A DNA stretch of 64,000 bases from Antedon mediterranea. Its lineage: Eukaryota; Echinodermata; Crinoidea; Comatulida; Antedonidae. The position numbers were made by a program, and so were the translations under genes. A model generated the notes under the pieces. The model was not told the origin of the DNA. It did no database searches and saw nothing but the letters and a program-made list of their open reading frames with translations. Below are positions 3,614-37,951 of this stretch, piece by piece. The DNA lies in assembly GCF_964355755.1 (NCBI RefSeq), contig NC_092679.1, positions 14,994,932-15,058,931 of the forward strand, written 5' to 3'. Numbering within the stretch: position 1 is the first letter of the stretch; every line of letters begins with the position of its first letter.

Positions 3614-6600
3614 ATGGCGTTTGAACAAGATAAAGGATGGGCTTATGTTGTTGCTCTAGCAAGCTGGTCAATTATAATATTCACAGATATGGCTTTCAGG
3701 TCTCCGGGAATATATTATACATATATGGCCGAGTATTTTGAAGCTTATGCTGTTAATGTTGGATTTGGTCTTTCTATGATCCGGACTCTCAATTTCTTAT
3801 TAGGTAAGACTGGTTGTAGGTTTAAATCAAGCAAATGCTTTTTTTGAACAGCATTTTCACGCATGCATTTCAGGAAATAGGTGTCATTATGACATTTACA
3901 TTTGCATTAGGTTATTCATTGTTTTAATATTATTATTCATTGTTTTCTGTGAATGGAACACCATCGTTAAACATTTATATTCAACTAGGACACTTAAGCC
4001 TATATATAACAGTGATAAAAGCAGAGGGAAGTAAATGTTTGTGAATATAGAATCTATGTTATTCCTTATGACCATTATTTACACACAATGCACAGCGGAC
4101 GGCCGGTTTCTGAAACAGGTTAACAGATTCTACGTGGGGACAAGCTATCTACGTGGGACAAGCTACGTGGTTTTCAGCTTACTGTGTAAATTGGCCTTTA
4201 CGGTAACCATAACCTACTTTATATAACGCAATAAGAAACCAATTCATATTTGGACACCATCTTTTTTTGGATTTTGAATCTTGTCATTTATAGGTGTGCT
4301 GGGTGCCATTTTGGTGGAAAGATCGAATTGCCGACTAGTTACATTTTTTAGTAGTCTGTTAATGATGTCTGGAACTTTTTTGATTTATATGTCAACAAGT
4401 TTCTACCAACTAATCATCGCATGTACACTTATTGGTTAGTTTAACATTTTCTTTCTCTAAAGCTCTGTCTACACTATCAAACTAGTTTTTGACAAAACAA
4501 AGTGTGATGTGCACAAATATGGCAGTGATATGCCCAAACATAGTAGTGATATGACATCATGATGTCCATACATTTTTTTGTCACATAAAGTTTGATGAAG
4601 ACAGAGCATAATATTCAACGTATATAAAAAGAAACTATTACTGACCTAGGCCTAGTTGGCTTTTGTTTTCCTGTCCTGTTATTATTGTTTTTTATTAGGT
4701 CAAATAAATAAATAAAATTATTGTTTTTCTATAATAAATAATTGGCAAAATGTTATTTTATGTCGTTTAATGTCGATCTTCTTACAAACATCACCTTAAA
4801 AGTGACATGAATTAAATTGCAATATGTCTGCTTCTTCTGAAATTATCATCGTCATGTTTCATTTTATGAAGACATGTAAAAAAAACTAATATGGCCACCT
4901 GAATTGAAAAGAAACACATTAAAAAGTGCGCATCACGCTTTTACATGCCTGATTTTCTCCCAAAATGCTCAGGCATTAATAATAATGTTACCTGGTATAC
5001 CAATATTTTCATTTTGAGGAATTAAAAAATTAATGTGAATAACTTGGATCAAATATTTTCACCTATATACTGAATATTATTTGAATTTGTTATAGCTCCC
5101 AGATATAAAGGTGACGCGGCCCCATATAACGTATTATGGAAGCTGTTAAATTATAAATGTTAATTCATGAGAACAAAAATTGACTATCGTCCAAAGTGAC
5201 GGGTCCACATCTCGCTAATTTAATTTCAGGAATTGGATTAAGTTTGGCGAATTATGTAAGCTACTATATCTTAGATGTTTACTTCAAACAGCACTTTGAA
5301 TTTGTAATATCAGTATTGCTGGTGATTAGAGGTATTGGTGCCATCATTTCAACACCAGTGACACAGGTAAACACAAGGTCACGGTGATCAAGTTTGTTTG
5401 TTTTTAAATTTTAAACCACAGATGGATGGATTTAGGAAGCAATCTGGACCCGGATCTAAATTAATACTTTACTAAAATTATAGTTCAGTCAATCTACAAT
5501 CTTTTTATTGTTTGTACTAATTATATGCCATACGTCAAAACTACAAGACGGATCTTAACGATTCTTTATCCTTTTATCTTTTTACTCTTGCCGGATGTTA
5601 CAACTCTTATATTACTTTTTGTGTTGGGCATCGTCTTCTTTTATTTGTAGGCCTATTTCATCATACATCTTTAGACGAAAGGTTGAATAAAAGTATAATG
5701 TTAGTCTATAGTAATAATCAAGCTAGAGATCTGTTAAAGACTGAAAATCTGCTAAAAAATGCTTTGATTTGTTTAAACAGGTAATGGTTATGGTGTACGG
5801 GTGGAAATCAGCTTTTCTTATTAATGCTGGCCTGTCATATCAGATTTGTGTTTGTGGCTCAGTTTTCAGAACTCCCAAAAAAACAATTAGGAATAAAGGC
5901 AACAACTCGAATATTTACAAACTTTGTCATTTTTCATTGTTTAAAAACAAAATGTTCCGAACTCTGCTAGTTGTATCATGTGTGCAAGCTGCGTCTGAAG
6001 GGATTATCCTAACCATGACAGACGATCTGGAAGAGCGTGGTGCATCGCTGTATTTAAGTCAATCAATTGGTATTATTTATGGCATTGGTAGTTTACTTGG
6101 AAGACCATTTCATTATGTTTTCAGCAAGTGTTTTACAACTGACTTACTTATCCACTTGGCAGTGTGTTTCCTTATCGCAACTTTTTCTACATTTATCAGT
6201 TGTGTATTCACAAGTGTGACGTCAGTGTTTTTGTACATCTTCATGTACAGTTTTTTTACTGGATGGATAGATGCGGTAAAACCATTATTTATGAAATATG
6301 AAATTGATGCTGATGAATTTGCCTATGGGTACGCATGGACATATGTTTTCTATGGCCTAGGATCATGTATAATAATTCCTATAACAGGTATGTAAGAACG
6401 TTTTTATTTTATTTTTAGATTTATTACAGCAGGCAAAATTGTTACAGTAGCAATATAAAATCTGTCCTCAGTAACAATCGTGTATAGTTTGTAGGTATAC
6501 TATATTTGGCGACAAACAGGATGGATAAACTCAAGATAAACCAACTGTTTCATTTTAAGTTTAAAGCTTTGTCTGCACTATCAAACTTTATTTGACAAAA

Positions 6601-7637
6601 AAAATGTGATGTGCCCATATATGGACATGATGATGTCATATCACTACCATATTTAGAAATACAACTACCATATTTTGGCACATCACACTTGTTTTGTCAC
6701 ATAAAGTTTGATAGTGTAGACAAAGCTTTAGGGAGTGGATTAGATGAGTCGACAGTTACGACCATAATACTAGGTCAGCTAAAAGCTACAAGCACACTTC
6801 CTAAAATTGATTATTCACCCTCTTGAAGTTCCACCTTACAGTAAGGGGACACCTGTCTTTTAGGACACCTGTCTTTTAGGACTCAACAAAGTTCCTATTA
6901 TGCTATAGCGTACGGTATACGTACATTTCGCCTCGGTTGGTCTCACATGAAATTGCCGCCGTCATGGGTGTCCGTGGGGAAATTCTAGTAATGTAACCAT
7001 AAAGGCCCATTTACACTAGGACGATAACGATCGACGATAAATAAACAAATATATTTATTTATACATAAAACAAACGAAATATAAAAACTTTTTATAGAAT
7101 AATCATTTATGATGTCTTTGATGAAAATGATATTTTCACACGTCCAATCAAATGACGTCATGATTAGTAAGAGCAATAATAATAATAATATCGTAACAAT
7201 TCAACGATGTTATTGTTTTTATTTATCATGACTTGATTTGAATTGTAAAAATATTATTTTTATCAAAGACAGCATAAATGATTATCTTATAGTTCTAGAA
7301 TAAAAACCTTTCTAATTTTTGTTTTGTTTTAAATCCAATGACATATTAAAAAGTTTATAACAATAAATAAGACAGGATGTTTGGTCCTTTTATGGTTTTT
7401 CATCAGCGCCATGAACAAAAGTGGATATTGGCTTGATGGAACTAAAATGATCAACAAGTATTTTATTTTACAGGGCATTATGTTTAAGAACTTTTGTATT
7501 TTTCAGGGTTACTTAGAGATTCAACTGGTTCTTACTGGGCATCAGAAGTATTATTTTTTGTGCTTAGTGGAATTGGACTCGGAATAGTTCTTAATGTTAT
7601 CTACCATAGAAGGATACATTACAAATTATTACAATAA
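3614..7637 (+). CDS. MFS transporter, SLC16 (MCT)-like, copy A
   Basis: Five exons join in frame to 402 codons including stop: 3614-3803, 4294-4434, 5230-5366, 5781-6387, 7507-7637. All introns are GT-AG. The N-terminus DKGWAYVVALASWSIIIF resembles the [D/E]G-G-W-x-W start of monocarboxylate transporters (SLC16). VLGAILVER and YGWKSAFLINAGL also fit TM2 and TM5-6 of that family. The protein is hydrophobic throughout with short loops and, at 401 residues, is shorter than typical MCTs (450-500). This indicates a plasma or organelle membrane solute carrier; the substrate cannot be read from sequence. The start codon has a CAAAATGG context. Introns 2 and 4 carry MITEs. The gene converges with the EML relic downstream. 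It differs from copy C by having six T in exon 2, which keeps the frame open. Confidence 0.85.
4461..4607. mobile_element. MITE, AGCTCTGTCTACAC family (A, intron 2)
   Basis: Inverted ends AGCTCTGTCTACACTATCAA and TTTGATGAAGACAGAGC. The centre has GTGATGTGC and ATCATGATG palindromic words. One of 11 copies in the window; it lies within intron 2 of MFS copy A. Confidence 0.75.
6565..6727. mobile_element. MITE, AGCTCTGTCTACAC family (A, intron 4)
   Basis: Nearly perfect inverted ends (AGCTTTGTCTGCACTATC and GATAGTGTAGACAAAGCT) around a centre with GACATGATGATGTC. Present at the same place in units B and C, so it predates the duplication. Confidence 0.8.
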
Positions 7638-7813
7638 TATCTTATTTAATTTATTATCATGCACTTTAAGAGCTCCACTTGATTTTCATTCTGAACCATT
7701 ATTTAAGTGAAATCAAATGTACTTAAAATCACTGATCCATTCATAACATTCAAATCTCTATTTTTATGTTCTTGAATTATTTTGTACAGCTACTAACATT
7801 AACAAATATAATT

Positions 7814-8000
7814 TTAGAAATCCACGTGAGATGCTTGTACCACTTCTTAGATTAACCAAATCTAAATACTGTATAAGCCTAACCTACTCAGTACCAACTC
7901 TGTGGAATGATTTAGATGATATACTTACTGGTTGTATTGTAAAACCGTAACAATTTTTAAGAAATGTATAAAGTATTTTTATTTGTCAAATTATCATGAG
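7814..8000 (+). pseudogene. LINE ORF2 C-terminal relic (A)
   Basis: Reads NPREMLVPLLRLTKSKYCIS, then a stretch ending in PTLWNDLDDIL, which is the usual end of a CR1/Jockey-type ORF2 (repeated Arg/Thr stretch, then P-x-LWN-x-L). After one frame change it gives TVTIFKKCIKYFYLSNY. It lies 180 bp past the MFS stop and is present in all three units, so it is old. It could serve as MFS 3' UTR sequence. Confidence 0.5.
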
Positions 8001-8355
8001 TAAAGATATAAATGTTCTCTGCATATATATATTTTGTTTCATACTTATATATTTGAAGTTTAAATATGGCGTTTACCTTTTTCCTTAATAAACTAATCCT
8101 AATATATTGTTTTATGAAGGGGCTGATTGAGACAAGTTTATTACTTCTAAACCAGATCCTAACCAAAAAAAAGGGGAAAATATTATGTTAAAATGTATGT
8201 TAAATAAAATATTTTTTTTTTTGGTTGAATAAATATTACGAAAAAATCCCAAAAAAGTGGTCATTGTATAATTTAAAGCTAGTGATTATAGGTCGTGGGT
8301 TCGAGAGTGGCACCTGAAAGCAATTTGCACCACTATGCTGGTGTTGATTCATAAA

Positions 8356-8500
8356 GTTTGGTTCCCACTAGGAGTCAACATAAGGACGTAGAAACAACTC
8401 AAGCGAATTGACCAATGACAAGCAGCAGCTCAAATAATCCATCGCTCGTGATTGGTCAAATAACATGCGTTACGCTTACTTCCTTGAGTGGAAACCAAGC
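8356..8500. mobile_element. 145-bp MITE, TTTGGTTCCCACT ends (A)
   Basis: Ends GTTTGGTTCCCACTAGGAG and CTTGAGTGGAAACCAAGC are imperfect inverted repeats. The element is flanked by ATAAA at 8351-8355 and 8501-8505. The same element is at 26180-26324 and 43299-43445. Confidence 0.7.
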
Positions 8501-8577
8501 ATAAATTTAATCCAATATACTCCTAAACAACAATAATTACTGTGTACATGTTCACTTTCTTATATTAAGCTCTGTCT

Positions 8578-8659
8578 ACACTATCAAATATGGTAGTGAT
8601 ATTGCCAAATATGGCAGTGATATGACATGACACAAAAACTATGATTGTGTAGACAGAGA
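8578..8659. mobile_element. Short MITE, AGCTCTGTCTACAC family (A, downstream)
   Basis: About 82 bp; a shortened copy with AGCTCTGTCTACACTATCAA at the left and TGTGTAGACAGAG at the right. Orthologous copies are in units B and C. Confidence 0.7.
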
Positions 8660-9206
8660 TTTAGACGTTTAAAAAAAAAAATACACTATTATAAATTATG
8701 TGATGATTGTATAACTTATTTAAATGAATAAGCTTAGAAGAGATATCAGATTTTATAAATGTACACTGCTGTGTTCTTTATTACAACAATAAATATATAC
8801 TAAAAATCAAATCAAAGCAGACTACAAACAACATGTATTCTGTATAACTACTGTATATCAATTTATTTATAATATACTTTCACAATTTTTGTAGCATTAT
8901 TCTCCGCTGCCGCCTCTCAAAAAAATAAATAAAATTATGATTAGGGGTTCTGATGTATACACCTTCAGTGCCATAAATTCACAATTACAATATAGAATGT
9001 ATTTATATTTATCAGGCAATATAATAATGTCTGATTTTAATAAATATTAATAAGTTTAGAGAAACTATGTTATTGAGTGCTGTATGTGCCTAAAATTTTA
9101 GAAAAATATAAAAAGATACAACTTCATTTTTTACAATTGTTAGGCCTTGATCCCGCAATTAGTATAAGCATTTCAAAGTCTTGGATCCATCATGGATAAC
9201 CAACAC

Positions 9207-9381
9207 CAGTGGCGTAACGCAGAGGCCTAAGGCCCCTGGTTTAGGAACGATAAGTGGCTCTCCAACACTGGATGCATCAGGTGTTTATAGCCTTTTTTGA
9301 CATACTTTAATGCTCAGGGCCTCCATAAGCCCCGGGCCCCTGGGTTTAGCCAGTGAGTGCTCATAGCCATTACGCCACGTG
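9207..9381. mobile_element. hAT-type MITE with 8-bp TSD (A)
   Basis: Ends CAGTGGCGTAA and (reverse complement) CACGTGGCGTAA, with ACCAACAC duplicated at 9199-9206 and 9382-9389. An 8-bp duplication and CAGTGGCG-like termini are typical of hAT elements. The 175-bp interior is GC-rich compared with its surroundings and non-coding. Confidence 0.8.
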
Positions 9382-9960
9382 ACCAACACCATTAACCTAT
9401 TCTGTGTTAAAAAACAACACTATTAATCTGTTACACTTAAATTATATTTCTTAATAAATATTGACTTAAGAATATATCAAGGTAATGACATTAGAACCTT
9501 TATTAAGGGGACACCTTACGGAACCAATAAAGTGTCTCCTTAATTGAGTTGATTTGTGTTGAAACATATATTGGCCTTTGTTTATTTTAAGAAAGTGTCC
9601 CCTTAATAGGTGTCTAAAAGGAGAAATTTTCAAATGCATAATTTAATAAATCTATGGTAATTATGTAAGATTGTAGATTTTGTTTTTGTAAATTGAAGTT
9701 TGAATTTAGATTTTAAAAATATTTTAAAGGTTTATTTTGAAATGTCTTATTCTTGTCTGTAATTTTCAAGTTTTAATTTTTTGCTTAAAGCATATTTCTA
9801 AATTATTAAAAATATTAAGCACATTACATTATTCAACAAACATATCTAAAAATATCATCTATCTAATCTAATCTTTAAAACAAAAATGCAGATATACATT
9901 TAAATATAAATATTATGTCAACCACATACAAAAAATGTTACATCTATTTGATGAGGTATA

Positions 9961-10110
9961 CAGTAGAAGCCACATTAAAGAAACATTTTCCCTTATAGGA
10001 GTGTCCCCTGAATATGGGTTGGCCATAGTGTTAAACCATATATTTCAAAATATCACAGTAAAGTGTGGTCCTTTTAATATATAAGGGCGTCCCCTGGATA
10101 GGTTCTACTG
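9961..10110. mobile_element. TA-flanked MITE, CAGTAGAAC ends (A)
   Basis: Inverted ends CAGTAGAAGCC and GGTTCTACTG, flanked by TA on both sides. A related GTGTCC-rich palindromic stretch lies at about 9495-9625. The TA duplication suggests a mariner-type origin, but no transposase is present. Confidence 0.6.
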
Positions 10111-10232
10111 TATTCATCTTTTTGTTCTTATAAATAATTATTACTTTAGTAATGATAGGAACACTGATTTTGTCCATCTTATATCTTCAGCCTTTTATTT
10201 CAGTTGCAAAATCTTGATAAATATTAACCTCT

Positions 10233-10614
10233 TCAACTAGTTTTCCATAAAAACAAACTAAAAAGAATGCTTTAATTTCAAATTTTAATATATCAAATAC
10301 AAAATATAGTTATCAATGCTAGTCATGCTATAATATGGTGTATGAGAATATCAGCATGAGGCAGAAATGTTCGATTTTCTCACTACCCACCCCAATTTCC
10401 CAGTAGTCATATTTTATTTTAATAGTATATTTAAAGCATCTTTGCCTCGTCTGTTTTTAACCTCTCGCTACGCCCTTGGCTTTTGAATTTTGTTTTGTTT
10501 GTTACATGCTTACCAGCAGTCATCGGCACCAGCGGTGATCAAGTAACGGTCATCAAATGTGAATTTTACATTAGTCACATGAGCTGAATGTCCAACATAC
10601 TTCTTATGTGGTGC
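10233..10614 (-). pseudogene. EML gene 3' relic, last two exons only (A)
   Basis: Exons 10514-10614 and 10233-10257 match the last WD40 blade of the EML gene of unit C ([14 protein letters not shown], then LFLWKTS and stop) with splice sites kept. In C the joining codon is Ser (TGCAG then T); here it is Cys (TGCTG then T), and a Gly of the GGDDC motif is Ala. The two preceding coding exons (C 46258-46626) are missing by deletion, leaving only the base of their splice site at about 11210. With no upstream exons it cannot make an EML protein. Confidence 0.85.
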
Positions 10615-11451
10615 CTAACAAAATAGATACATAAATTATGGTATAATTAAGTTATGGGTATTCTGACCAAGGCAATCCGACAACAGGAAACTGAACTCGC
10701 CTTATCAAGATAGGAACTCGTAACAGTCCTTTGATCTTGGGTCTGGCTGCGACAAATACCAACAGTACTGTACTATGTACATATTCTCAACAGAGCATGG
10801 TGTATGTTAAGGGGCATGGAACTGATCTTGTTGCAGCCACAGATAAACCCTTTGACCTCTGGGCTGAAGCTCAGCATCCTGTTTTTAAATTGCATTGTTC
10901 TGACCAATGTTGTTTTAAATGTTTTTAATTGGATTCTATGCTTTATATACCATTTTATAAATATTTATTGTGAGATAACCAATCAATGAGTGGGAATGCA
11001 AATTGTAACCCTACATATGATCAGCGTTATCTTGTCTAAGATTAAACAACATGCTTGTACTGATTGGAAGAATGATCTTGCACTAATATCTTCTCAATCA
11101 GACTATCAAATTATTATTTTTAAAAAACCCTGCCTAATTACTCTGGACACACCTTCTCTCTAGAAGGAGGGTTAGATTGTAGTTGCATTCTTACATATTT
11201 GTTTCCATACCAACCTGTAACAAATAATTAATGATAAAATAGATAACGAGTGTTCAAAATGTTTGAAATCGCGTCCACTACTCACTCACGCAATACTCAA
11301 ACGATTGTCGTATGCAAATAATTTAAGACATTAAAACAAAAATGATTCACAACTGTACTGTGTTCTCATGTATGTGGATTTCATGTTATATAATATTTTA
11401 GATAATTGATAGATAACAGATATGGCGACCTTTTTGAGGTCAAGGACATAA
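10615..11451. other. EML intron remnant (A)
   Basis: Aligns with unit C introns between 45701 and about 47019, minus the segment holding two EML exons. No gene is supported. The short open frames at 10731-10989 lie in this intron-derived sequence. Homology to C stops at about 11451, where a truncated LINE begins. Confidence 0.6.
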
Positions 11452-14945: not shown

Positions 14946-15988
14946 AAATTTGTAAGGAATATTAACATGAACCAATTATCATTGTGTACTTGAATTATAT
15001 CAACTTTTGCTTGTTTTATATCATCAAGTATTTTCATTTTTCATTGTTGGGAGTGGTTAATTTACTCTCTGGTTTTATTTTAACAAATGGTCATGGTCCA
15101 TGCATGTAGTGCCTTCTGGGGGATAGCTTCTAATTTTATTTGAAGAAAGGTGAATACTTTGAATCATGTACAGTCTTAGCCAAAGGCTGGTATACATAAG
15201 TAGTATTGTATTATTAACCTAGCTTACAAATACCATGAGTTACATAACATAAGAATCTATGCGTTTTTGGCCTAAATAGTAGTATGAGAATTAGGCCTAG
15301 CCTAGGCCAACAAGCCAGCCAAATTAAGGCCTATATATGGTGACTTGGGATTGGTTAGAGAAGCTAGGCCTAGCTAATTGAGAATTTAAATTGTTTTTTG
15401 CCTTCAAAATAAAAAAGACCTACTTGGCCTAAATAAAAACAACAACACGTTTGCAAGCCTATATCATGATATAAACAATTCTGTCTTTTCTTATTCTATT
15501 ATTTTATAGATCTCGCCATCGTTACCATTACATTATTATATAAAGGACCAAATTATACTGTAAAGCGGTATCCAAATGCTTCTGCTACTTTGCTGGACAG
15601 TCATTGGCCAACAAAGTAAAAGAGATGAACAAAACACCGAAGGTTAGCGTACAGGAATCAGCAGGAAGAAGTTACTGGATAGTTTTATGTTTGGTATATT
15701 TTATTGTACCTTGTCATTTACTTTAATTATATGTACATGTTATATATTATTTTATTAATTCTGTTATTCATTAAAACTCCAACTCATAACTGACAGTAAA
15801 GTGTAAGCTTTTGTGTAATTATTAGTTTTATATTTTTAATTCTAAATTTGTTATTTAAGATCCAAAACCTTGATCTTTTAATATATATATCTTTTGATAT
15901 ATTCCCTATTCCCACGTGTAAAGGTACAATTCCAAAACAATCCAGAATATAATATATTCTGGATATATATTATATATGTATATATATA
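14946..15988. other. No gene seen (A)
   Basis: AT-rich sequence with AGGCCTAG words at about 15290-15380. No conserved open frame, splice pair or repeat structure was recognised. Shared with unit B 35776-37440, apart from two insertions there. Confidence 0.5.
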
Positions 15989-15998
15989 TATATCCAAT

Positions 15999-16043
15999 CT
16001 GCAGACAGTACTGTTTCGATCTTATTAGATCTCGTCAGTGCAG
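15999..16043 (-). ncRNA. Hammerhead ribozyme 1
   Basis: On the minus strand: stem I CTGCA/TGCAG (5 bp), core CTGACGA, stem II GATCT-AATA-AGATC, core GAA, helix III ACA-GTAC-TGT (three pairs and a palindromic tetraloop), then C17. The cleavage triplet is GTC, with the cut expected between 16004 and 16003. All invariant core bases are present. The short helix III with a palindromic loop is like minimal animal hammerheads that act as dimers. Activity is inferred, not shown. Confidence 0.85.
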
Positions 16044-16111
16044 CTCAGGTTTCGAAATGAAATGTACCGCAGAACTGGCACAATATATAGGCTGAGCCAG
16101 GTATGCGGGCC

Positions 16112-16948
16112 GCAATTTTTTTTTTCGTACATAAGTTGGGGACCCCACCTCATGAAACGTCACAAAACAAACATGAATAATTCATCAGTTAAATTTTCTT
16201 GTTCCGTGTGCACCCAAGCGTATAGCAACAAGAAGTGATTACACAAGCAAGTGCGGTACGATTCTGGGCCTATCTCCGCTGTTGTTGCGGCGTGCGATTT
16301 CATAGAAGAATAGCCGGGTTTTGTGTGGATTGTCGAAATAATCAGCCTTTAGTTTATGGTGTTTTTAATATTATAATTTATTACTAAAGAATTACGTGTT
16401 ACGTGTGGGTGTGTGTGACGTGTGTGTGTTAGGTATGACACAATCCGAGTACTATAAGTCAGCAAAATTAAACAATAAACATTACACAAAAATACATTTT
16501 TTATTCTCGTGGGTCTAATCTTCCCATCTCATGTGTTCATATACGCGCATTTTTAAAGTTCCTTTGAGTACATGCATATTGTTTGATAATAAAATAGCAG
16601 AATTAAAAAAATACAGTACACAAATTATACACATTCTTTATTCTTGTGGGTCTAAGCTTTCTTTGGGCTATGTCCAATGAATTACTACTTAGTTTAATGT
16701 CTTGCCTAGCTGTCGATTAGCGTCGACTCGACACATTTTGTGTGAAGAAGTGTGCGCGAAGGCAATCCCGTGAATTGACTTAGAATCCTAGGCCTACTGT
16801 AAAGTATCGTATCGCAGTTGTGTAATCACTTCTTGTTGCTATACGCTTGGGTGCAAACGGAACAACAAATATAACTGATGAATTATTCATGTTTATTTTG
16901 TGACGTTTCATGAGGGGTCCCCAAATTATGTACGAAAAAAAAAATCGC
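16112..16948. mobile_element. 837-bp long-TIR element inside hammerhead repeat
   Basis: Inverted repeats of about 135 bp begin GCRATTTTTTTTTTCGTACATAA at both ends. Flanks are ATGCGGGCC (16103-16111) and ATGCGGGAC (16949-16957), a 9-bp duplication with one difference. The uninterrupted site is visible in the repeats at about 17230 and 37555. The interior has two short direct repeats around TTATTCTYGTGGGTCTAA and no clear transposase. A 9-bp duplication with long TIRs suggests a Mutator-like MITE. Confidence 0.8.
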
Positions 16949-17122
16949 ATGCGGGACATGGTACATTGATTATGAACACATAGAGTGCAGAAGCTCAAAG
17001 AGCGTGCTTTGCAAAATGCTAATAGTATTCACAGCAAAAATGCACCGTTTCGAAATGAGTGCTCCACAAAACAACATACTATATATGAATATAGCAGAAA
17101 GTAGAGGAGCGTAATATCCAAT

Positions 17123-17167
17123 CTGCAGACAGTACTGTTTCGATCTTATTAGATCTCGTCAGTGCAG
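17123..17167 (-). ncRNA. Hammerhead ribozyme 2
   Basis: Identical to copy 1 across all helices and core positions: stem I 17123-17127/17163-17167, cleavage after the base at 17128. Together with copy 3 it delimits a 281-bp monomer. Confidence 0.85.
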
Positions 17168-17403
17168 CTCAGGTTTCGAAATGAAATGTACCGCAGAACT
17201 GGCACAATATATAGGCTGAGCCAGGTTTGCGGGACATGGTACAGTGATTATGAACACAAAGAGTGCACAAGCTCAACGAGCGTGCTTTGCAAAATGCTAA
17301 TAGTATTCACAACAAAAATGCACCGTTTCGAAATGAAGAGTGTTCTACAAAACAACATACTATATATGAATATAGCAGAAAGTAGAGGAGCGTAATATCC
17401 AAT

Positions 17404-17450
17404 CTGCAGAGACAGTACTGTTTCGATCTTATTAGATCTCGTCAGTGCAG
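17404..17450 (-). ncRNA. Hammerhead ribozyme 3, two-base insertion at cleavage side
   Basis: Same core and stems, but GA is inserted on the plus strand at about 17409-17411. On the RNA, two bases now separate the GTC cleavage site from stem I. This probably lowers or changes activity. The same change is in copy 5 (37730), so it predates the A/B duplication. Confidence 0.75.
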
Positions 17451-17607
17451 CTCAGGTTTCGAAATGAAATGTACCGCAGAACTGGCACAATATATAGGCT
17501 GAGCCATGTATACGCGATTATGAGATCATGTTCCGAATATGAGCACTGTTTCTATAATTTACAGTATGATTTATATATAATTTACACAGTGCTACGCAAC
17601 ATCATTG

Positions 17608-17776
<169 letters not shown>

Positions 17777-18282
17777 ACACCGGACCAACTACTAGTTATT
17801 CAACTACAAAAACAACATTTAATAGTGTATAATAGTATATTTTTATGTGTATGTATATATGTGTAATTTTGTTTTTATATTTTTATCCTAAATATTTTAT
17901 TGATGTTTCAATAAATTGCAGTACGCACTGAAACAGATGAAAAATTGACTTTTGATTTTATTACAGTACTCTATTTGCCTAGGCCTAACAAACGATTTGC
18001 TGTCACATTAAAGAAGGTCTAATAGCGGACTTGTATTTATTTCAAGCTGAAGATCTCAACAACCCATAGTTAGAAAATAAACATTGTTTGGCTACTCATT
18101 ATTTATAGAAAGTTGTTGGGTTTCTATAGAAAAGTGAATGAAACTTTTCAATATGTATTCAATCACAGATTTTCCAGTTCAGGAATTGTGAAGAATTGCC
18201 ATTATTATTATTGTTTGGCTGAGCTGGCTTTTAAATGGTCTGACCTTGTTAAAAATTTTACTTTTACTTGGTTTTACACAAA

Positions 18283-21200
18283 ATGGCGTTTGAACAAGAT
18301 AAAGGATGGGCTTATGTTGTTGCTCTAGCAAGCTGGTCAATTATAATATTCACAGATATGGCTTTCAGGTCTCCGGGAATATATTATACATATATGGCCG
18401 AGTATTTTGAAGCTTATGCTGTTAATGTTGGATTTGCTCTTTCTATGATCCGGACTCTCAAATTCTTATTAGGTAAAACTGGTTGTAGGTCAAAAACTTT
18501 AAATCAAGCAAATGCTTTATTGAACAGCATTTTCATGCAAATAGGTGTCATTATGACATTTACATTTGCATTAGGTTATTCATTGTTTTAATATTATTAT
18601 TCATTGTTTGCTGTGAATGGAACACCATCGTTAAACATTTATATTCAACTAGGACACTTACGCCTATATATAACAGTGATAACAGCAGAGGGAAGTAAAT
18701 GTTTGTGAATATAGAATCTATGTTATTCCTTATGACCATTTACACACAATGCACAGCGGACGGGTGGTTTCTGAAACAGGTTAACAGATTCTACGTGGGG
18801 ACAAGCTATCTACGTGGGACAAGCTACGTGGTTTTCAGCTTACTGTGTAAATTGGCCTTTACGGTAACCATAACCTACTTTATATAACGCAATAAGAAAC
18901 CACTTCATATTTGGACACTATCTTTTTTTGGTCCTGCTACCGGAATTTTGAATCTTGTCATTTATAGGTGTGCTGGGTGCCATTTTGATGGAAAGATGGA
19001 GTTGTCGACTAGTTACATTTTTTAGTAGTCTGTTAATAATGTCTGGAAGTTTTTTGATTTATTCGTCAACAAGTTTCTACCAACTAATCATCGCATGTAC
19101 ACTTATTGGTTAGTTTAACATTTTCTTTCTGTAAAGCTCTGTCTACACTATCAAACTAGTTTGACAAAAAAAAGTGTGATGTGCACAAATATGGTAGTGA
19201 TATGCCCAAACATAGTAGTGACATCATGATGTCCATATATGGGCACATCACACTTTTTTGTCACATAAAGTTTGATGAAGACAGAGCATAAACGTCAAGT
19301 TTTTTCTCTAGCAATTCAAAAGGGTTTTGCTGTTAGTAATGATAGAACCATGAAAGAAAGAGAAGCATTCACTAAGTTAAAAGGTGAATTAAAAACGCGA
19401 TTAAATGCAGGTGAGAAAGACATAGTTATCCGAAGTGGGAAGATTGTGAAGCTTTTTCGTTCCCAATAAAGAAAATAAAAACAGAAAGTTCTCTAATTTA
19501 AAAGAAAGTACGTTTTCCAATCAGAAATTTAACTTTTGGTACTCAAATTGTGATGGTTTTCTAAATAAGAAGTCAGAGTTACTTTCCCGTTTGGTTTCAG
19601 AAAAAGTTGATTTTATTGCATTGACAGAGATTTTACCAAAGCATTGTTTGTACCCGCCACTGATAAATGAATTTCGTGTCCAAGGTTACCAAGCATTTTT
19701 TTCGAATGAGGATTTTACTTCTGGTCGTGGTGTTTTAATTTATGTCAGAAATGGAATTTCAGTTTCTCAAATTTTCTTTAAGAAGAATAAGTTTGTAGAG
19801 TCAGTTTGGGTTAGAGTAAAAGAAGTAAAAACGGATCTTTTATTAGGTTGTGTTTACCGTAGCCCGACTTGTAGTATGGATAATAATATCAAGCTGAACT
19901 CATTGTTCCGTGAAGTATATAAATCATCTTTTTCTGATTTAATCGTTGTCGGCGATTTTAACTATAAAAGTATTAACTGGGAATTAAATTGTGTGTCTTC
20001 GGAAGATGGAGATTCCAGCAGAAGTTTCTTTGACACCATCAACGATCTATTTTTAATTCAACACGTTATGGAACCTACTAGATACAGAGAAGGCGAAACA
20101 CCCAATGTTTTGGATCTGGTTTTTACAGACAAAGAGAATACTATAAATGGCATTATGCAGTCTCCACCACTGGGTAAAAGCGACCATATGGTGTTACAAT
20201 TTTCATTGGATCTTGTAAGAGATGACAGAATTGAACCAAATATTCGAAGTTACAGGCATGGTAACTATGATTTGCTGCGCGAGAAAATTGGTTTGGTAGA
20301 TTGGGATGTGGTTTTCAATGACAAATCAGGTATTCAATCGTGGGACGAATTCGAGCATATTCTTGCGAAGAATATTGATGAGTGTATCCCGATGAGGAAG
20401 GTTTGCCACGGAAGAAAACCTCTTTGGATGAACAAAAAAATTGAAAAGCAGATTGCCAAAAAGAATAAATGTTGGAAACAGTATGTAAAGGCCAAGAGAA
20501 AACAAAAAGTATGTGTGTCAGCAAAATGGTCGAAGTTTGTCCAAGTAAGAAATCAAACAGTAGATCTGATTCGATGTAGTAAATCTGACTTCGAAAATAA
20601 AATAGCAATTGAGATCAAATCTAATGAAAAGTCTTTTTGGAGGTATCTCAGTTCTCAGATCAATATAAAGTCTGGTATACCCAACTTAACTGATAGTAAT
20701 GGAAGGCATGTGTCTGATGACAAGGATAAGGCTGAGTTGCTAAACACGTTTTTTAGTAGTGTATTTGTCGATGAAAATTTTTCGAATGTACCGGCTATTG
20801 ATGACATTTCAGAGGATTTTTTATCTCAAGTTGACTTTCCTTGTGACGAAATCTTAAATATTTTATCAACGTTGAATATTACTAAAACAGCTGGTCCTGA
20901 TGGTATTCACCCACGCATCTTAGTCGAACTAAAGGATATCATTTGCTATCCCCTCCATATTATTTTTACGAAATTGTTTCAAGAAGGAGCCGTCCCTAAT
21001 AGTTGGAAACGGGCTACAGTGGTACCGATTTTAAAAAAAGGAGTGAAGTCTGACCCAAGCAACTATAGACCTGTGAGTTTAACTTCGGTAGTTGGTAAAA
21101 TTATGGAGAGAATTATCAGGAAGGAATTATTGGACTTTCTTGAACATCACTCACTTATTTGTTATGAGCAATTTGGTTTCCGGCAAGGTCGTTCCTGTGC

Positions 21201-24200
21201 TTTACAATTACTTGATGTTCTTGAAAACTGGTTTTCTTATTTTGATAATCAGGATTGTTTTGATTGTATCTACCTTGACTACAAGAAGGCTTTCGATAGT
21301 GTGCCTCATCATAGACTCCTTCTGAAAATGAGTGCATTGGGTATTAGAGGTAAACTTCTAAACTGGTTTCAAGAATTTCTTAACGATAGACAACAACGGG
21401 TTAGTGTCAATGGATGTGTTTCAGATTGGGCTGATGTTCGTAGTGGTATCCCGCAAGGAAGCGTCGTTGGACCTGTTCTTTTCATTATGTTTATAAATGA
21501 TTTACCTTCTGTTATTTCTTCCTCTGTACGCATGTTTGCAGATGATACTAAATTGTATAGAGTAGTTAACACTGTGAATGATGCTCAAGTTCTACAAGAA
21601 GATTTAGAGAAAGCATGTGACTGGTCTGACAAATGGCAATTACCTTTTAACGAGGGTAAGTGCAAAGTAATGCACTTTGGGAAGAAAAACAACAAACATC
21701 TGTATGCCATGCGTGGTTTCTTATTGAATGAAGTTGATCATGAAAAAGACCTCGGTGTTACTATTGACTCTAAACTTGTTTTTAATGTACATGTGGCAGA
21801 TGTAGCAATGAGAGCAAATCGGAAGTTGGGCATGGTATATCGAGCTTTCAAGTTTTTAAATATGGATGGGTTTCTTCGTTTATATAAAGCTATTATTCGT
21901 CCGACCTTGGAATACTGCAACGTTGTTTTTAACTCGCTACATTGTAAGGAGGAAGACCTATTGGAAAAAGTCCAAGAACGTGCCACCAAGCTTATTTTTT
22001 CCATTCGTCATTTACCTTATTCAGAAAGGCTGAAAATTCTCAACCTACCTACTCTCGCATACAGAAGGCAAAGAGCTCATTTGATACAGATTTTTAAAAT
22101 TTTACATGGAGTGGATAGTATTTCTGCTGATTCTTTTTTTGAGCGTGATGAAGATGTTAGAACACGTGGTCATTCTTTTAAATTAAAATTTAAGTTCTCA
22201 CGCACAAATTGGATGAGGGACTCATTTGGTCGAAAAGCTATTATATTATGGAATTCGTTATCGGAGGATGTAGTAGCTTCAAGATCAACCAATCAATTTA
22301 AGTCCGGTCTTGAACGGGCATGGTCCAACCACCCTCTTAAATTTGCGCCATATTCAAGAGTTGATGTAATTATCAAGAGGGGCTTATAGGCATAGCCTAG
22401 CCTCGACTCCGGACCCAGCATTGCTGAGCTCCGGAAACAAGTAAACAAGTAAACAAGTAATATTCAACGTATATAAAAAGAAACTATTACTGACCTAGGC
22501 CTAGTTGGCTTTTGTTTTTCCTGACCTGTTATTATTGTTTTTTATTTGGTCGAATAAAAAATTAAAGGATTGTTTTTCTATACTAAATAATTGAAAAAAT
22601 GTCGATCTTCTCACAAAGATCACCTTAAAAGTAACAGGAATTATATTGCAATATATAGACCATTATCTTCTGAATTTATCATCGTCATGTTTCATTTATG
22701 AAGACATGTAAACAAAACTAATATGGCCACCTGAATTGAAAAGAAACACATTAAAAAGTGCGCATCTCGCTTTTACATGCCCGATTTTCTCTCCAAATGC
22801 TCAGGCATTAATAATAATAATGTAACCTGGTATACCAATATTTTCATTTTGAGGAATTAAAACATAAAAAATGTGAATAACTTGGATCAAATATTTTCAC
22901 CTATAAACTGAATATTATTTGAATTTGTTATAGCTCTCAGATTTTAAAGGTGACGTATTATGGAAGCTGTTAAAGTATAAATGTTAATTCATGAGAACAA
23001 AAATTGACTATCGTCCAATGTGACGGGTCCACATCTCGCTAATTTAATTTCAGGAATTGGATTAAGTTTGGCGAATTGTGTAAGCTACTATATCTTAGAT
23101 GTTTACTTCAAACAGCATTTTGAATTTGTAATATCAGTATTGCTGGTGATTAGAGGTATTGGTGCCATCATTTCAACACCAGTGACACAGGTAAACACAA
23201 GGTCACGGTGATCAAGTTTGTTTGTTTTTAAATTTTAAACCACAGATGGATGGATTTAGGAATCAATCTGGACCCGGATCTCAATTAATACTAAAATTAT
23301 AGTTCAGTCAATATACAATCTTTTTATTATTTGTACTAATTATATGCCATATGTCAAGGGCTACAAGACGGATCTTAACGATTCTTTATCCTTTTCTCTT
23401 TTTACTCTTGCCGGAAATTACAAGTCTTATATTACTTTTTGTGTTGGGCATCGTCTTCTTTAATTTGTAGGCCTATTTCATCATACATCTTTAGACGAAA
23501 GGTGGAATAAAAGTATAATGTTAGTCTATAGTAATAATCAAGCTAGAGATCTGTTATATATAAATATGCTAACAACTGCTTTGATTTGTTTAAACAGATA
23601 GTGGTTATGTTGTACGGATGGAAATCAGCTTTTCTTATTAATGCTGGCCTGTCATATCAGATTTTTGTTTGTGGCTCAGTTTTCAGAACTCCCAAAAAAA
23701 CAAATAGGAATAAAGACAACTTGAATATTTACAAACTTTGTCATTTTTCATTGTTTAAAAACAAAATGTTCCAAACTCTGCTGGTTGTATCATGTGTGCA
23801 AGCTGCGTCTGAAGGGATTATCCTAACCATGACAGACGATCTGGAAGAGCGTGGTGCATCGCTGTATTTAAGTCAATCAATTGGTATTATTTATGGCATT
23901 GGTAGTTTACTTGGAAGACCATTTCATTATGTTTTCAACAAGTGTTTTACAACTGACTTACTTATCCACTTGGCAATGTGTTTTCTTATCGCAACTTTTT
24001 CTACATTTATCAGTTGTGTATTCACAAGTGTGACGTCAGTGTTTTTGTACATCTTCATGTACAGTTTTTTTACTGGATGGATAGAATCGGTAAAACCATT
24101 ATTTATGAAATATGAAATTGATGCTGATGAATTTGCCTATGGGTATGCATGGACATATGTTTTCTATGGCCTTGGATCATGTATAATAATTCCTGTAACA

Positions 24201-25460
24201 GGTACGTAAGAACGTTTTTATTTATTTTTAGATTTATTACAGCAGGCAAAATTGTTACAGTAGCAATATAAAATCTGTCCTCAGTAACAATCGTGTATAG
24301 TTTGTAGGTATACTACATTTGGCGACAAACAGGATGAATAAAGTCAAGATAAACCAACTGTTTCAGTTTAAGTTTAAAGCTTTGTCTACACTATCAAACT
24401 TTATTTGACAAAAAAATGTGATGTACCCATATATGGACATGATGATGTCATATCACTACCATATTTAGAAATACAACTACCATATTTGAGCACATCACAC
24501 TTGTTTTGTCACATAAAGTTTGATAGTGTAGACAAAGCTTTAGGGAGTGGATTAGATGAGTCGACAGTTACGACCATAATACTAGGTCAGCTAAAAGCTA
24601 CAATCACACTTCCTAAAATTGATTATTCACCCTATTGAAGTTCCACCTTACAGTAAGGGGACACTTGTCTTTTAGGGCACCTGTCTTTTAGGACTCAACA
24701 AAGTTCCTCTTATGCTATAGCCCCGGCTATAGCGTACGGTATACGTACATTTCGCCTCGGTTGGTTTCACATGAAATTGCCGCCGTCATGGGTGTCCGTG
24801 GGGAAATTCTAGTAATGTAACCATAAAGGCCCATTTACACTAGGACGATAACGATCGACGATAAATAAACAAATATATTTATTTATACATAAAACAAACG
24901 AAATATAAAAACTTTTTATAGAATAATCATTTATGATGTCTTTGATGAAAATGATATTTTCACACGTCCAATCAAATGACGTCATGATTAGTAAGAGCAA
25001 TAATAATTATAATATCGTAACAATACAACGATGTTATTGTTTTTATCATGACTTGATTTGAATTTTAAAAATATTATTTTTATCAAAGACAGCATAAATG
25101 ATTATCCTATTATATATTTCTAGAATGAAAACCTTTCTAATTTTTTTTGTTTTAAATCCAATGACATATTAAAACGTTTATAACAATAAATAAGACAGGA
25201 TGTTTGGTCCTTTTATGGTTTTTCATCAGCGCCATGAACAAAAGTGGATATTGGCTTGATGGAACTAAAATGATCAACAAGCATTTTATTTTACAGGGCA
25301 TTATGTTTAAGAACTTTTGTATTTTTCAGGGTTACTTAGAGATTCAACTGGTTCTTACTGGGCATCAGAAGTATTATTTTTTGTGCTTAGTGGAATTGGA
25401 CTCGGAATAGTTCTTAATGTTATCTACCATAGAAGGATACATTACAAATTATTACAATAA
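18283..25460 (+). CDS. MFS transporter, SLC16 (MCT)-like, copy B
   Basis: Exons 18283-18472, 18968-19108, 23054-23190, 23598-24201 and 25330-25460 join to 401 codons including stop (400 residues), with all splice sites GT-AG. Exon 4 is one codon shorter than in A and C (in the NNLN stretch of the central loop). Exon 1 is identical to copy C in protein, with CGCDS differences from A at ALSMIRTLKFL. A 3.2-kb LINE sits in intron 2, making it about 3.9 kb long. Exon 5 lies in the interval where B changes from C-like to A-like. Family, topology and unknown substrate are as for copy A. The open frame suggests it can be functional. Confidence 0.85.
19135..19287. mobile_element. MITE, AGCTCTGTCTACAC family (B, intron 2)
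   Basis: Same element as at 4461 and 39427. The LINE at 19292 is inserted four bases past its right end. Confidence 0.75.
19293..19469 (+). CDS. LINE ORF1 C-terminal fragment
   Basis: About 58 codons, RQVFSLAIQKGFAVSNDRTM and onward, rich in charged residues. It includes LKTRLNAGEKDIVIRSGKIV, which matches the usual tail of CR1/Daphne-type ORF1 proteins (…LRxGExxLVIRxGKIV). The start is lost by 5' truncation. It ends inside the first bases of the open ORF2 frame (overlap 19450-19469), so ORF2 may be translated by reinitiation or frameshifting. ORF1 proteins normally bind the element RNA. Confidence 0.65.
   Translation, partial: RQVFSLAIQKGFAVSNDRTMKEREAFTKLKGELKTRLNAGEKDIVIRSGKIVKLFRSQ
19450..22389 (+). 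CDS. LINE ORF2: AP endonuclease and reverse transcriptase
   Basis: The frame is open for 979 codons with no internal stop; the region recognisable as protein starts at about 19530 (NFWYSNCDGFLNKK). No ATG stands near the start, so the true start is uncertain. The N-terminal third is an apurinic-like endonuclease with GDFNYKSINWE and the SDHMV block at 20179-20193. The centre is a non-LTR reverse transcriptase with AGPDGIHPRIL, YRPVSLTSVVGKIMERII, YLDYKKAFDSVPH, GIPQGSVVGP and the catalytic FADDT at 21535-21549. The C-terminus has LWNSLSEDVV. The protein would nick target DNA and prime reverse transcription there. All catalytic motifs seen are intact. Confidence 0.9.
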   Translation, partial: SFFVPNKENKNRKFSNLKESTFSNQKFNFWYSNCDGFLNKKSELLSRLVSEKVDFIALTEILPKHCLYPPLINEFRVQGYQAFFSNEDFTSGRGVLIYVRNGISVSQIFFKKNKFVESVWVRVKEVKTDLLLGCVYRSPTCSMDNNIKLNSLFREVYKSSFSDLIVVGDFNYKSINWELNCVSSEDGDSSRSFFDTINDLFLIQHVMEPTRYREGETPNVLDLVFTDKENTINGIMQSPPLGKSDHMVLQFSLDLVRDDRIEPNIRSYRHGNYDLLREKIGLVDWDVVFNDKSGIQSWDEFEHILAKNIDECIPMRKVCHGRKPLWMNKKIEKQIAKKNKCWKQYVKAKRKQKVCVSAKWSKFVQVRNQTVDLIRCSKSDFENKIAIEIKSNEKSFWRYLSSQINIKSGIPNLTDSNGRHVSDDKDKAELLNTFFSSVFVDENFSNVPAIDDISEDFLSQVDFPCDEILNILSTLNITKTAGPDGIHPRILVELKDIICYPLHIIFTKLFQEGAVPNSWKRATVVPILKKGVKSDPSNYRPVSLTSVVGKIMERIIRKELLDFLEHHSLICYEQFGFRQGRSCALQLLDVLENWFSYFDNQDCFDCIYLDYKKAFDSVPHHRLLLKMSALGIRGKLLNWFQEFLNDRQQRVSVNGCVSDWADVRSGIPQGSVVGPVLFIMFINDLPSVISSSVRMFADDTKLYRVVNTVNDAQVLQEDLEKACDWSDKWQLPFNEGKCKVMHFGKKNNKHLYAMRGFLLNEVDHEKDLGVTIDSKLVFNVHVADVAMRANRKLGMVYRAFKFLNMDGFLRLYKAIIRPTLEYCNVVFNSLHCKEEDLLEKVQERATKLIFSIRHLPYSERLKILNLPTLAYRRQRAHLIQIFKILHGVDSISADSFFERDEDVRTRGHSFKLKFKFSRTNWMRDSFGRKAIILWNSLSEDVVASRSTNQFKSGLERAWSNHPLKFAPYSRVDVIIKRGL
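24378..24539. mobile_element. MITE, AGCTCTGTCTACAC family (B, intron 4)
   Basis: Orthologous to the copies at 6565 and 41517, with nearly perfect inverted ends. Confidence 0.8.
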
Positions 25461-25636
25461 TATCTTATTTAATTTATTATCATGCACTTTAAGAGCTCCA
25501 CTTGATTTTCATTCTGAACCATTATTTAAGTGAAATCAAATGTACTTAAAATCACTGATCCATTCATAACATTCAAATCTCTATTTTTATGTTCTTGAAT
25601 TATTTTGTACAGCTACTAACATTAACAAATATAATT

Positions 25637-25823
25637 TTAGAAATCCACGTGAGATGCTTGTACCACTTCTTAGATTAACCAAATCTAAATACTGTATAAG
25701 CCTAACCTACTCAGTACAAACTCTGTGGAATGATTTAGATGATATACTTACTGGTTGTATTGTAAAACCGTAACAATTTTTAAGAAATGTATAAAGTATT
25801 TTTATTTGTCAAATTATCATGAG
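25637..25823 (+). pseudogene. LINE ORF2 C-terminal relic (B)
   Basis: Same relic as 7814-8000, with TLWNDLDDIL still readable. One base change gives VQTLWND where A and C have VPTLWND. Confidence 0.5.
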
Positions 25824-26179
25824 TAAAGATATAAATGTTCTCTGCATATATATATTTTGTTTTATACTTATATATTTGAAGTTTAAATATGGCGTTTACC
25901 CTTTTCCTTAATAAACTAATCCTAATATATTGTTTTATGAAGGGGCTGATTGAGACAAGTTTATTACTTCTAAACCAGATCCTAACCAAAAAAAAGGGGA
26001 AAATATTATGTTAAAATGTATGTTAAATAAAATATGTTTTTTTTTTGGTTGAATAAATATTACGAAAAAAACCCAAAAAAGTGGTCATTGTATAATTTAA
26101 AGCTAGTGATTATAGGTCGTGGGTTCGAGAGTGGCACCTGAAAGCAATTTGTACCACTATGCTGGTGTTGATTCATAAA

Positions 26180-26324
26180 GTTTGGTTCCCACTAGGAGTC
26201 AACATAAGGACGTAGAAACAACTCAAGCGAATTGACCAATGACAAGCAGCAGCTCAAATAATCCATCGCTCGTGATTGGTCAAATAACATGCATTACGCT
26301 TACTTCCTTGAGTGGAAACCAAGC
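26180..26324. mobile_element. 145-bp MITE, TTTGGTTCCCACT ends (B)
   Basis: Same element as 8356-8500, with the same ATAAA flanks. Confidence 0.7.
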
Positions 26325-26391
26325 ATAAATTTAATCCAATATACTCCTAAACAACAATAATTACTGTGTACATGTTCACTTTCTTATATTA

Positions 26392-26482
26392 AGCTCTGTC
26401 TACACTATCAAATATGGTAGTGATATTGCCAAATATGGCAGTGATATGACATGACATAAAAACTATGATTGTGTAGACAGAG
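26392..26482. mobile_element. Short MITE, AGCTCTGTCTACAC family (B, downstream)
   Basis: Orthologous to the short copy at 8578. Confidence 0.65.
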
Positions 26483-27029
26483 ATTTAGACGTTTAAAAAA
26501 AAAATACACTATTATAAATTATGTGATGATTGTATAACTTATTTAAATGAATAAGCTTAGAAGAGATATCAGATTTTATAAATGTACACTGCTGTGTTCT
26601 TTATTACAACAATAAATATATACTAAAAATCAAATCAAAGCAGACTACAAACAACATGTATTCTGTATAACTACTGTATATCAATTTATTTATAATATAC
26701 TTTCACAATTTTTGTAGCATTATTCTCCGCTGCCGCCTCTCAAAAAAATAAATAAAATTATGATTAGGGGTTCTGATGTATACACCTTCAGTGCCATAAA
26801 TTCACAATTACAATATAGAATGTATTTATATTTATCAGGCAATATAATAATGTCTGATTTTAATAAATATTAATAAGTTTAGAGAAACTATGTTATTGAG
26901 TGCTGTATGTGCCTAAAATTTTAGAAAAATATAAAAAGATACAACTTCATTTTTTACAATTGTTAGGCCTTGATCCCGCAATTAGTATAAGCATTTCAAA
27001 GTCTTGGATCCATCATGGATAACCAACAC

Positions 27030-27204
27030 CAGTGGCGTAACGCAGAGGCCTAAGGCCCCTGGTTTAGGAACGATAAGTGGCTCTCCAACACTGGATGCAT
27101 CAGGTGTTTATAGCCTTTTTTGACATACTTTAATGCTCAGGGCCTCCATAAGCCCCGGGCCCCTGGGTTTAGCCAGTGAGTGCTCATAGCCATTACGCCA
27201 CGTG
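27030..27204. mobile_element. hAT-type MITE with 8-bp TSD (B)
   Basis: Orthologous to 9207-9381, flanked by ACCAACAC on both sides. Confidence 0.8.
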
Positions 27205-27783
27205 ACCAACACCATTAACCTATTCTGTGTTAAAACACAACACTATTAATCTGTTACACTTAAATTATATTTCTTAATAAATATTGACTTAAGAATATAT
27301 CAAGGTAATGACATTAGAACCTTTATTAAGGGGACACCTTACGGAACCAATAAAGTGTCTCCTTAATTGAGTTGATTTGTGTTGAAACATATATTGGCCT
27401 TTGTTTAATTTAAGAAAGTGTCCCCTTAATAGGTGTCTAAAAGGAGAAATTTTCAAATGCATAATTTAATAAATCTATGGTAATTATGTAAGATTGTAGA
27501 TTTTGTTTTTGTAAATTGAAGTTTGAATTTAGATTTTAAAAATATTTTAAAGGTTTATTTTGAAATGTCTTATTCTTGTCTGTAATTTTCAAGTTTTAAT
27601 TTTTTGCTTAAAGCATATTTCTAAATTATTAAAAATATTAAGCACATTACATTATTCAACAAACATATCTAAAAATATCATCTATCTAATCTAATCTTTA
27701 AAACAAAAATGCAGATATACATTTAAATATAAATATTATGTCAACCACATACAAAAAATGTTACATCTATTTGATGAGGTATA

Positions 27784-27933
27784 CAGTAGAAGCTACATTA
27801 AAGAGATATTTTCCCTTATAGGAGTGTGCCCTGAATATGGGTTGGCCATAGTGTTAAACCATATATTTCAAAATATCACAGTAAAGTGTGGTCCTTTTAA
27901 TATATAAGGGCGTCCTCTGGATAGGTTCTACTG
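27784..27933. mobile_element. TA-flanked MITE, CAGTAGAAC ends (B)
   Basis: Orthologous to 9961-10110. Confidence 0.6.
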
Positions 27934-28100
27934 TATTCATCTTTTTGTTCTTATAAATAATTATTACTTTAGTAATGATAGGAACACTGATTTTGTCCAG
28001 ACAGCTTTCAAAACATGCTATCCATCTAATATGCTGTTCATCCATCTTATATCTTCAGCCTTTTATTTCAGTTGCAAAATCTTGATAAATATTAACCTCT

Positions 28101-28482
28101 TCAACTAGTTTTCCATAAAAACAAACTAAAAAGAATGCTTTAATTTCAAATTTTAATATATCAAATACAAAATATAGTTATCAATGCTAGTCATGCTATA
28201 ATATGGTGTATGAGAATATCAGCATGAGGCAGAAATGTTCGATTTTCTCACTACCCACCCCAATTTCCCAGTAGTCATATTTTATTTTAATAGTATATTT
28301 AAAGCATCTTTGCCTCGTCTGTTTTTAACCTCTCGCTACGCCCTTGGCTTTTGAATTTTGTTTTGTTTGTTACATGCTTACCAGCAGTCATCGGCACCAG
28401 CGGTGATCAAGTAACGGTCATCAAATGTGAATTTTACATTAGTCACATGAGCTGAATGTCCAACATACTTCTTATGTGGTGC
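28101..28482 (-). pseudogene. EML gene 3' relic, last two exons only (B)
   Basis: Exons 28382-28482 and 28101-28125 with intact splice ends, the same as the unit A relic including the Cys at the joining codon and the Ala in GADDC. The upstream exons are missing through the same deletion as in A, which shows the deletion happened before A and B separated. Confidence 0.85.

Positions 28483-37831: not shown

Positions 37832-37951
<120 letters not shown>

Follow-up and report, generated by a model that had tools for sequence, protein, structure and literature searches.

Does the 281-nt repeat that bears hammerhead ribozymes on the minus strand of this Antedon DNA represent a retrozyme, and could its locus still serve as a source of circular RNA? 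The question arises from a 64-kb stretch of DNA (hereafter the window), for which an original prediction had proposed tandem 281-bp repeats, each with a complete hammerhead as its only recognizable feature. From the data presented below, it seems likely that the repeat is a non-LTR retrozyme, a non-coding retroelement of 281 nt that spreads by the cycle proposed here. By the same explanation, the window locus would be a multi-unit copy of this retrozyme, interrupted by a second element and included in a duplication of the surrounding DNA.

We used a strict descriptor for type I hammerheads, which demands CTGANGA, stem II, GAA followed by A, stem III, H17 and a 5-bp stem I. The descriptor matches the 64-kb window at only two sites, both on the minus strand: hammerhead A1 (positions 15999 to 16043, with C17 at 16004 and a predicted scissile bond at 16004/16003) and hammerhead A2 (17123 to 17167, with C17 at 17128 and a predicted scissile bond at 17128/17127). 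Both are intact and are built of stem I (CTGCA/TGCAG), CTGACGA, stem II (GATCT/AGATC, with loop AATA), GAA, stem III (ACA/TGT, with loop GTAC) and C17. The topology of these matches is type I, as evident by the open helix of stem I and the loop-closed stems II and III; the window ribozymes are not the type III hammerheads within LTRs by which plant LTR retrozymes are recognized. No match was obtained on either strand of 200 first-order Markov simulations of the window. A third hammerhead, A3 (17404 to 17450, minus strand), carries a 2-nt insertion between C17 (17411) and stem I, is missed by the strict descriptor, and is probably impaired.

The Rfam HH9 covariance model matches copies 1 to 3 with scores of 32.5, 29.4 and 27.7 bits (E-values of 7e-6 to 3e-4 in a search space of 1.7 kb), but all three fall below the gathering score of 52, and no hammerhead is listed for the window at the gathering threshold. 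The minimum-energy fold of the isolated ribozyme differs from a hammerhead (z = -0.76), and strong structure is predicted for the RNA of a single 283-nt unit (z = -4.0). By energy computation, a 281-nt circle accommodates all three hammerhead helices for only 3.5 kcal/mol, which agrees with published findings on most animal retrozymes (PMC7229834). The 10-nt sequence of stem III, ACAGTACTGT, is palindromic, and it is therefore possible that two ribozymes pair through it. Dimeric action has been reported for amphibian hammerheads (PMC7229834). The window hammerheads are genuine as motifs, and cleavage itself is predicted from them.

The arrangement of these motifs bears on whether the locus could release RNA. 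Array A occupies positions 15994 to 17514 on the minus strand, with its RNA-sense 3′ end at 15994 (TGCAGATTGG) and its 5′ end at about 17514. It consists of a 5′ unit that is incomplete but retains its ribozyme, one complete unit, and one unit split by an inverted-repeat element (16112 to 16948, strand undefined). This 837-bp element lies inside unit A1, has inverted repeats of about 150 bp and is flanked by ATGCGGG at both ends. Because it interrupts unit 1, A1 and A2 stand 1,124 bp apart, and only A2 and A3, separated by 283 bp, are spaced near unit length. The pair that bounds a 283-nt piece therefore has one disrupted stem I, and the intact pair brackets a foreign element, so it is doubtful that a 281-nt RNA is released from array A today. 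The 3′ flank of the array in the RNA sense (15945 to 15993) is AT-rich and partly (TA)n. The longest stop-free stretch in array A is 82 codons, and the array has no open reading frame for the reverse transcriptase (RT) and GIY-YIG endonuclease that define Penelope-like elements (PLEs). The unit GC content of 0.402 is below the 45-50% taken as a criterion for animal retrozymes, and the tandem units of 281 to 283 nt in both window arrays fall within the 150-450 bp expected of them.

A second array, of which the original prediction made no mention, lies at 37440 to 37837 on the minus strand and is the paralogue of array A within a segmental duplication. Array B has one unit fewer and lacks the inverted-repeat element. 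Its hammerhead B1 (37449 to 37493, minus strand, C17 at 37454) has a stem I mismatch (TGCCG), and its hammerhead B2 (37730 to 37776, minus strand, C17 at 37737) has a 2-nt insertion identical to that of A3.

The original prediction accordingly held for copies 1 and 2, where a minus-strand hammerhead with the proposed stems and C17 is present, and for the absence of coding function in the repeat. It failed for copy 3, since not every repeat has a complete hammerhead, and for the clean 281-bp tandem, which the 837-bp element breaks up. The retrozyme-like character that it proposed is upheld for the family as a whole (type I hammerhead, 281-nt unit, 40% GC, no long frame and dispersed exact copies), but this locus is not a clearly working source of 281-nt circles.

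A threefold segmental duplication in the window extends over about 17-20 kb (2970 to 10770, 17765 to 28640 and 37939 to 45860), with most listed blocks 97-100% identical and some less. It includes three copies of one open reading frame, one of which matches MFS_1. Elsewhere in the window, a 645-aa open reading frame with a hAT dimerization domain is found at 59756 to 61693. Two genomic loci (L010, the same as L004, and L046) have the inverted-repeat element next to the retrozyme unit at the position that it takes in the window. In L010, only about 141 terminal nucleotides of the element match, as if a retrozyme RNA bearing the element had been reverse-transcribed and then 5′-truncated inside it.

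Copies of the retrozyme are dispersed through the genome. A 28-nt pattern from the ribozyme end matches 238 sites with up to three mismatches in the 354-Mb genome (18 contigs), and the reversed control matches none. Exact copies of the 28-mer number 97 among the matches listed, on contigs C1 to C11, and no exact copy was found in a collection of viral contigs or in one of genome contigs, from which the organism's own genome may have been left out. A BLAST-type search with one unit yielded at least 60 matches (from the best 40 of 331 candidates scored). A genome search with Rfam RF00163 was of no use, giving two sub-threshold matches among the best 73 of 33,051 candidates scored. We analyzed 108 loci, comprising 38 found by BLAST and 70 further exact-match loci.

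The RNA-sense 3′ end is fixed. In 99 of the 108 loci, the copy terminates with TGCAGATTGG (two mismatches allowed), 10 nt beyond the scissile bond. This total includes 67 of the 70 exact-match loci, which were selected by a pattern containing the canonical end, so that the fairer figure is the 32 of 38 from the BLAST set, whose whole-unit query itself included the ribozyme. Nine loci fell outside the count: by eye, L029 and L077 are canonical after all, L018 and L038 nearly so, and L031/L032, L046, L050 and L105 deviate. Merging four canonical loci with a common flank leaves 96 distinct loci. By contrast with this fixed end, 5′ ends are spread and cluster at AT microhomologies. Across 84 distinct exact-core loci, inserts have a median length of 143 nt, and seven exceed 289 nt; 11 of the 96 distinct loci have inserts longer than 300 nt, and the alignment runs gap-free across the ribozyme junction in nine of these 11. 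Inserts of one turn (271-291 nt) occur in four of the 84 loci. We dropped a pile-up at this length as proof of circles, given that an AT microhomology is present at this site, as at the other pile-up sites. No terminal repeats were noticed in the fetched copies. One strict ribozyme is present in 65 of the 108 loci, two in 2 and none in 41, and so few candidate sources of circles are seen among the sampled loci.

The flanks of these copies point to a preferred target. The first 3′-flank base is A in 94 of the 99 canonical loci, followed by T in 83, and the flank begins ATAT in 74. A TA run of at least 10 nt lies within the first 20 nt of the 3′ flank in 62 of the 96 distinct loci (17 of 29 found by BLAST and 45 of 67 others), relative to 8 of 1,373 background 20-mers, which came from a distance of about 330 bp or more upstream in these loci. 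A TA run of this length adjoins the 5′ junction in 31 of the 96. The 5′ and 3′ runs are not associated across the 96 loci (p = 0.31), and thus part of the 3′ TA could come from stuttering or later expansion. At 36 places, A+T reaches 82 and 87% in the 20 nt at the two junctions and 69% over 600 nt. Clean target duplications that are not pure TA, 8-14 nt in length, were read in five of the 96 loci (L037, L043, L068, L080 and L088), when a permutation control gave a mean of 0.78 and a maximum of 4 in 200 permutations; a looser duplication score at the 36 places was equalled by 6 of 300 permutations. These lengths exceed 4 bp, as expected for animal non-LTR retrozymes. The other 91 loci show no clean duplication, most being unreadable because their flanks contain TA.

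Copies are dispersed, but dimers with two strict ribozymes are confined to 2 of 108 loci; target duplications exceed the permuted mean, but only in a small minority of copies. The ribozymes are not the sole recognizable feature of the repeat, as evident by its fixed 3′ end and its (TA)n target.

A fixed start, variable 5′ ends and (TA)n flanks together form the signature of target-primed reverse transcription, and they point to AT microsatellites as the main site of new insertions, with synthesis begun at a single position just past the ribozyme. Because this point lies beyond the cleavage site, we infer that a cleaved linear monomer could not be the template. The template would need an intact junction, as expected of circles, of multimers and of read-through RNA that has stayed uncut.

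The last of these templates would permit SINE-like spread with no circles at all. Single copies would then be transcribed into uncut read-through RNA, (UA)n would derive from the downstream flank, and the ribozyme would be a passenger or would act later. This course is unlikely in our estimation. In its favor, most of the copies sampled fall short of a full unit, loci with two strict ribozymes are as scarce as noted above, and ribozyme mutants of an anole PLE are reported to have left insertion in vitro unaffected (PMC11167929). However, the target duplication begins immediately after TTGG in four of the five copies where it can be read, with no extra (TA)n tail, and the copies above 300 nt mostly continue without a gap through the ribozyme junction. 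On the strength of these four duplications, in a sample of five, we favor a circle or multimer as the template of the retrozyme.

The enzymes that might act on such a template were sought among the retroelements of the same genome. GIY-YIG matches number at least 94 at E ≤ 0.01 (from the best 150 of 355 candidates scored). In one PLE family, a frame of 857 aa is intact, with RT at its cut-off and GIY-YIG just under; two copies of this family are 99.3% identical, and its ends carry clean AT-rich duplications of about 8-13 nt by eye. None of ten sampled 3′ flanks of this family (eight distinct) has a TA run of at least 8 nt. A second family, PLE family C, shows RT similarity to the 857-aa family, with open frames of up to 681 aa among close matches, and its 25-nt tail has 1,095 exact copies in the genome. 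In the first 20 tails listed, two of which have an identical flank, TATA comes next in 19 and a TA run of at least 10 nt occurs within 20 nt in 12. The same tail lies within 100 nt of a junction at 10 of the 96 retrozyme loci (11 of 192 flank windows), whereas only 3 of 734 background windows, each 100 nt long, contain it. In two other PLE groups, judged by alignment ends, there is no long TA run at this point.

The retrozyme and the family C tail both end with TTGGAT, and homology beyond this motif is not significant (267 of 2,000 shuffles for local and 177 of 5,000 for anchored alignment). In one family C copy, the 3′ end (window positions 1 to 174, plus strand) has a hammerhead-like motif at 9-39 and a tail that ends TTTGGATT at about 174. 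The motifs of this kind in family C and the 857-aa family (CTGATGAAGGGC…GCCCGAAAG and TTGAGAAGGATCTC…GAGATCGAAAC) were judged by eye and not counted as ribozymes. A strict hammerhead scan of the fetched PLE loci (L117 to L138) found none, and Rfam at E ≤ 1 listed no hammerhead in ten of them. In a young PLE family (L137, L138, L142 and L152), copies have a 5′ pseudo-LTR in inverted orientation and terminate at either of two 3′ sites separated by about 30-35 nt, a feature that resembles the tail reported for other PLEs (PMC11167929).

Other repeats also stand beside TA runs. A sequence beginning CGATTATGAGATCATGTTCCG follows array A (17515 to 17612) and also follows the family C tail in L129, and it is thus a further repeat of this kind. 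The 3′ end of a tRNA-derived SINE (TTCTTTGCCT, then GTTTATATA) runs into (TA)n, and 16 of the 22 distinct matches have a TA run of at least 8 nt in a span of 40 nt; this sample is biased in that most were found in retrozyme flanks. The minus strand of the window contains three tRNA-Asp(ATC)-like sequences (1988 to 2059, 2360 to 2431 and 2783 to 2854), apparently heads of this SINE. The window also contains a LINE (19292 to 22457) that encodes an endonuclease and RT in 932 aa and has the 3′ tail (AAACAAGT)3 rather than (TA)n. It is present only in the middle segmental copy, and the other two copies provide the empty site.

We consider PLE family C the best candidate for the mobilizer because it has the (TA)n target in common with the retrozyme, which the 857-aa family and the window LINE do not. 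The 5′ truncation of the retrozyme copies, their constant 3′ end and their duplications of 8-14 nt also fit LINEs, and mobilization by a LINE-type element rather than a PLE deserves mention on this account. This origin is nonetheless improbable, given that the sole LINE examined ends in (AAACAAGT)3 and that, of the two PLE families with sampled ends, family C possesses the (TA)n target.

Spread at the DNA level is far less credible still. The ribozymes would then be fossils within a satellite or tandem duplication that has decayed, and that was distributed as DNA by unequal exchange or circular DNA. Window arrays A and B did spread by segmental duplication, and flanks are shared within L030/L033/L035/L036 and within L031/L032. 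However, dispersed copies with one fixed end, one variable end and a microsatellite target are the mark of retrotransposition, and the canonical end in 32 of 38 loci found with a whole-unit query argues against an artefact of selection. That the ribozymes arose by chance or artefact, as low Rfam scores and the deviant fold of the isolated ribozyme might be taken to indicate, is refuted to near certainty by the empty simulations and by 238 genomic sites with none in the reversed control.

The cycle that we propose for the retrozyme has four steps. In read-through transcripts of multi-unit copies, the type I hammerhead would cut the bond that joins the C of GUC to the U of UGCAG, as its anatomy suggests. 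Monomers may then be closed into circles, or multimers may stay uncut. Retroelement machinery, most likely that of PLE family C in view of a target of the same kind, would nick (TA)n DNA, and the resulting TA 3′ end would pair with AUAU just beyond ribozyme stem I. Synthesis would copy the ribozyme first and proceed 5′-wards for a partial turn, a full turn or more, as is consistent with the fixed 3′ end, the variable 5′ ends, the copies longer than one unit and the (TA)n flanks. Finally, the 5′ side would be closed, often at AT microhomologies, to leave the short target duplications that are readable in few copies. We propose only tentatively, as something that may well not hold in full, that family C uses the hammerhead-made circular RNA, primes from nicked (TA)n on AUAU for less or more than one turn, and serves the tRNA-derived SINE as well. 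If family C does act on a circular template, the mobilizer of an animal retrozyme would be named.

How, then, does this element compare with known systems? tRNA-derived SINEs are non-coding, have a fixed 3′ end and 5′ truncation, depend on borrowed machinery and begin with a tRNA head. The retrozyme differs from them in that it has no tRNA head, carries a ribozyme and includes copies longer than one unit. Plant LTR retrozymes are likewise non-coding retroelements bearing a hammerhead, but as they are described, the ribozyme is of type III, and LTRs, PBS, PPT and 4-bp duplications are present, whereas the Antedon element has a type I ribozyme and readable duplications of 8-14 nt (PMC7229834; PMC7761336). 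Hammerhead-bearing PLEs such as Poseidon of Anolis are reported to have an AT-rich target and reverse transcription that starts internally, downstream of the hammerhead (PMC11167929). The retrozyme resembles them in both respects, lacks their RT and endonuclease, and starts 10 nt past the scissile bond rather than the approximately 85-92 nt (111-118 minus 26) derived for the anole PLE (PMC11167929).

The closest counterparts are the animal non-LTR retrozymes known from the coral Acropora millepora, the mussel Mytilus galloprovincialis and the axolotl (Cervera and de la Pena, 2020; PMC7229834). According to that account, these combine a type I hammerhead whose stem III is short with low GC, a repeat length of about 170-400 nt and a structured RNA able to form the ribozyme, and they lack LTRs and coding regions (PMC7229834). 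In its anatomy, the Antedon element conforms to the animal non-LTR retrozymes (PMC7229834; PMC7761336). Those elements are described as tandem arrays, however, whereas the sampled Antedon copies are mostly single and 5′-truncated. Our literature search, judged mostly by titles and abstract openings, returned no paper that maps the start point or target of an animal retrozyme. For the questions of which enzyme mobilizes these elements and whether the circle is the template, the Antedon loci offer a defined test, based on a start point common to 99 of 108 loci, (TA)n beside 62 of 96 and a PLE family with a like target. The Antedon family would therefore be a new member of the animal non-LTR retrozymes, one whose (TA)n target and fixed 3′ end are new evidence on insertion and for which a Penelope-like element is a candidate partner and a circle a possible template.
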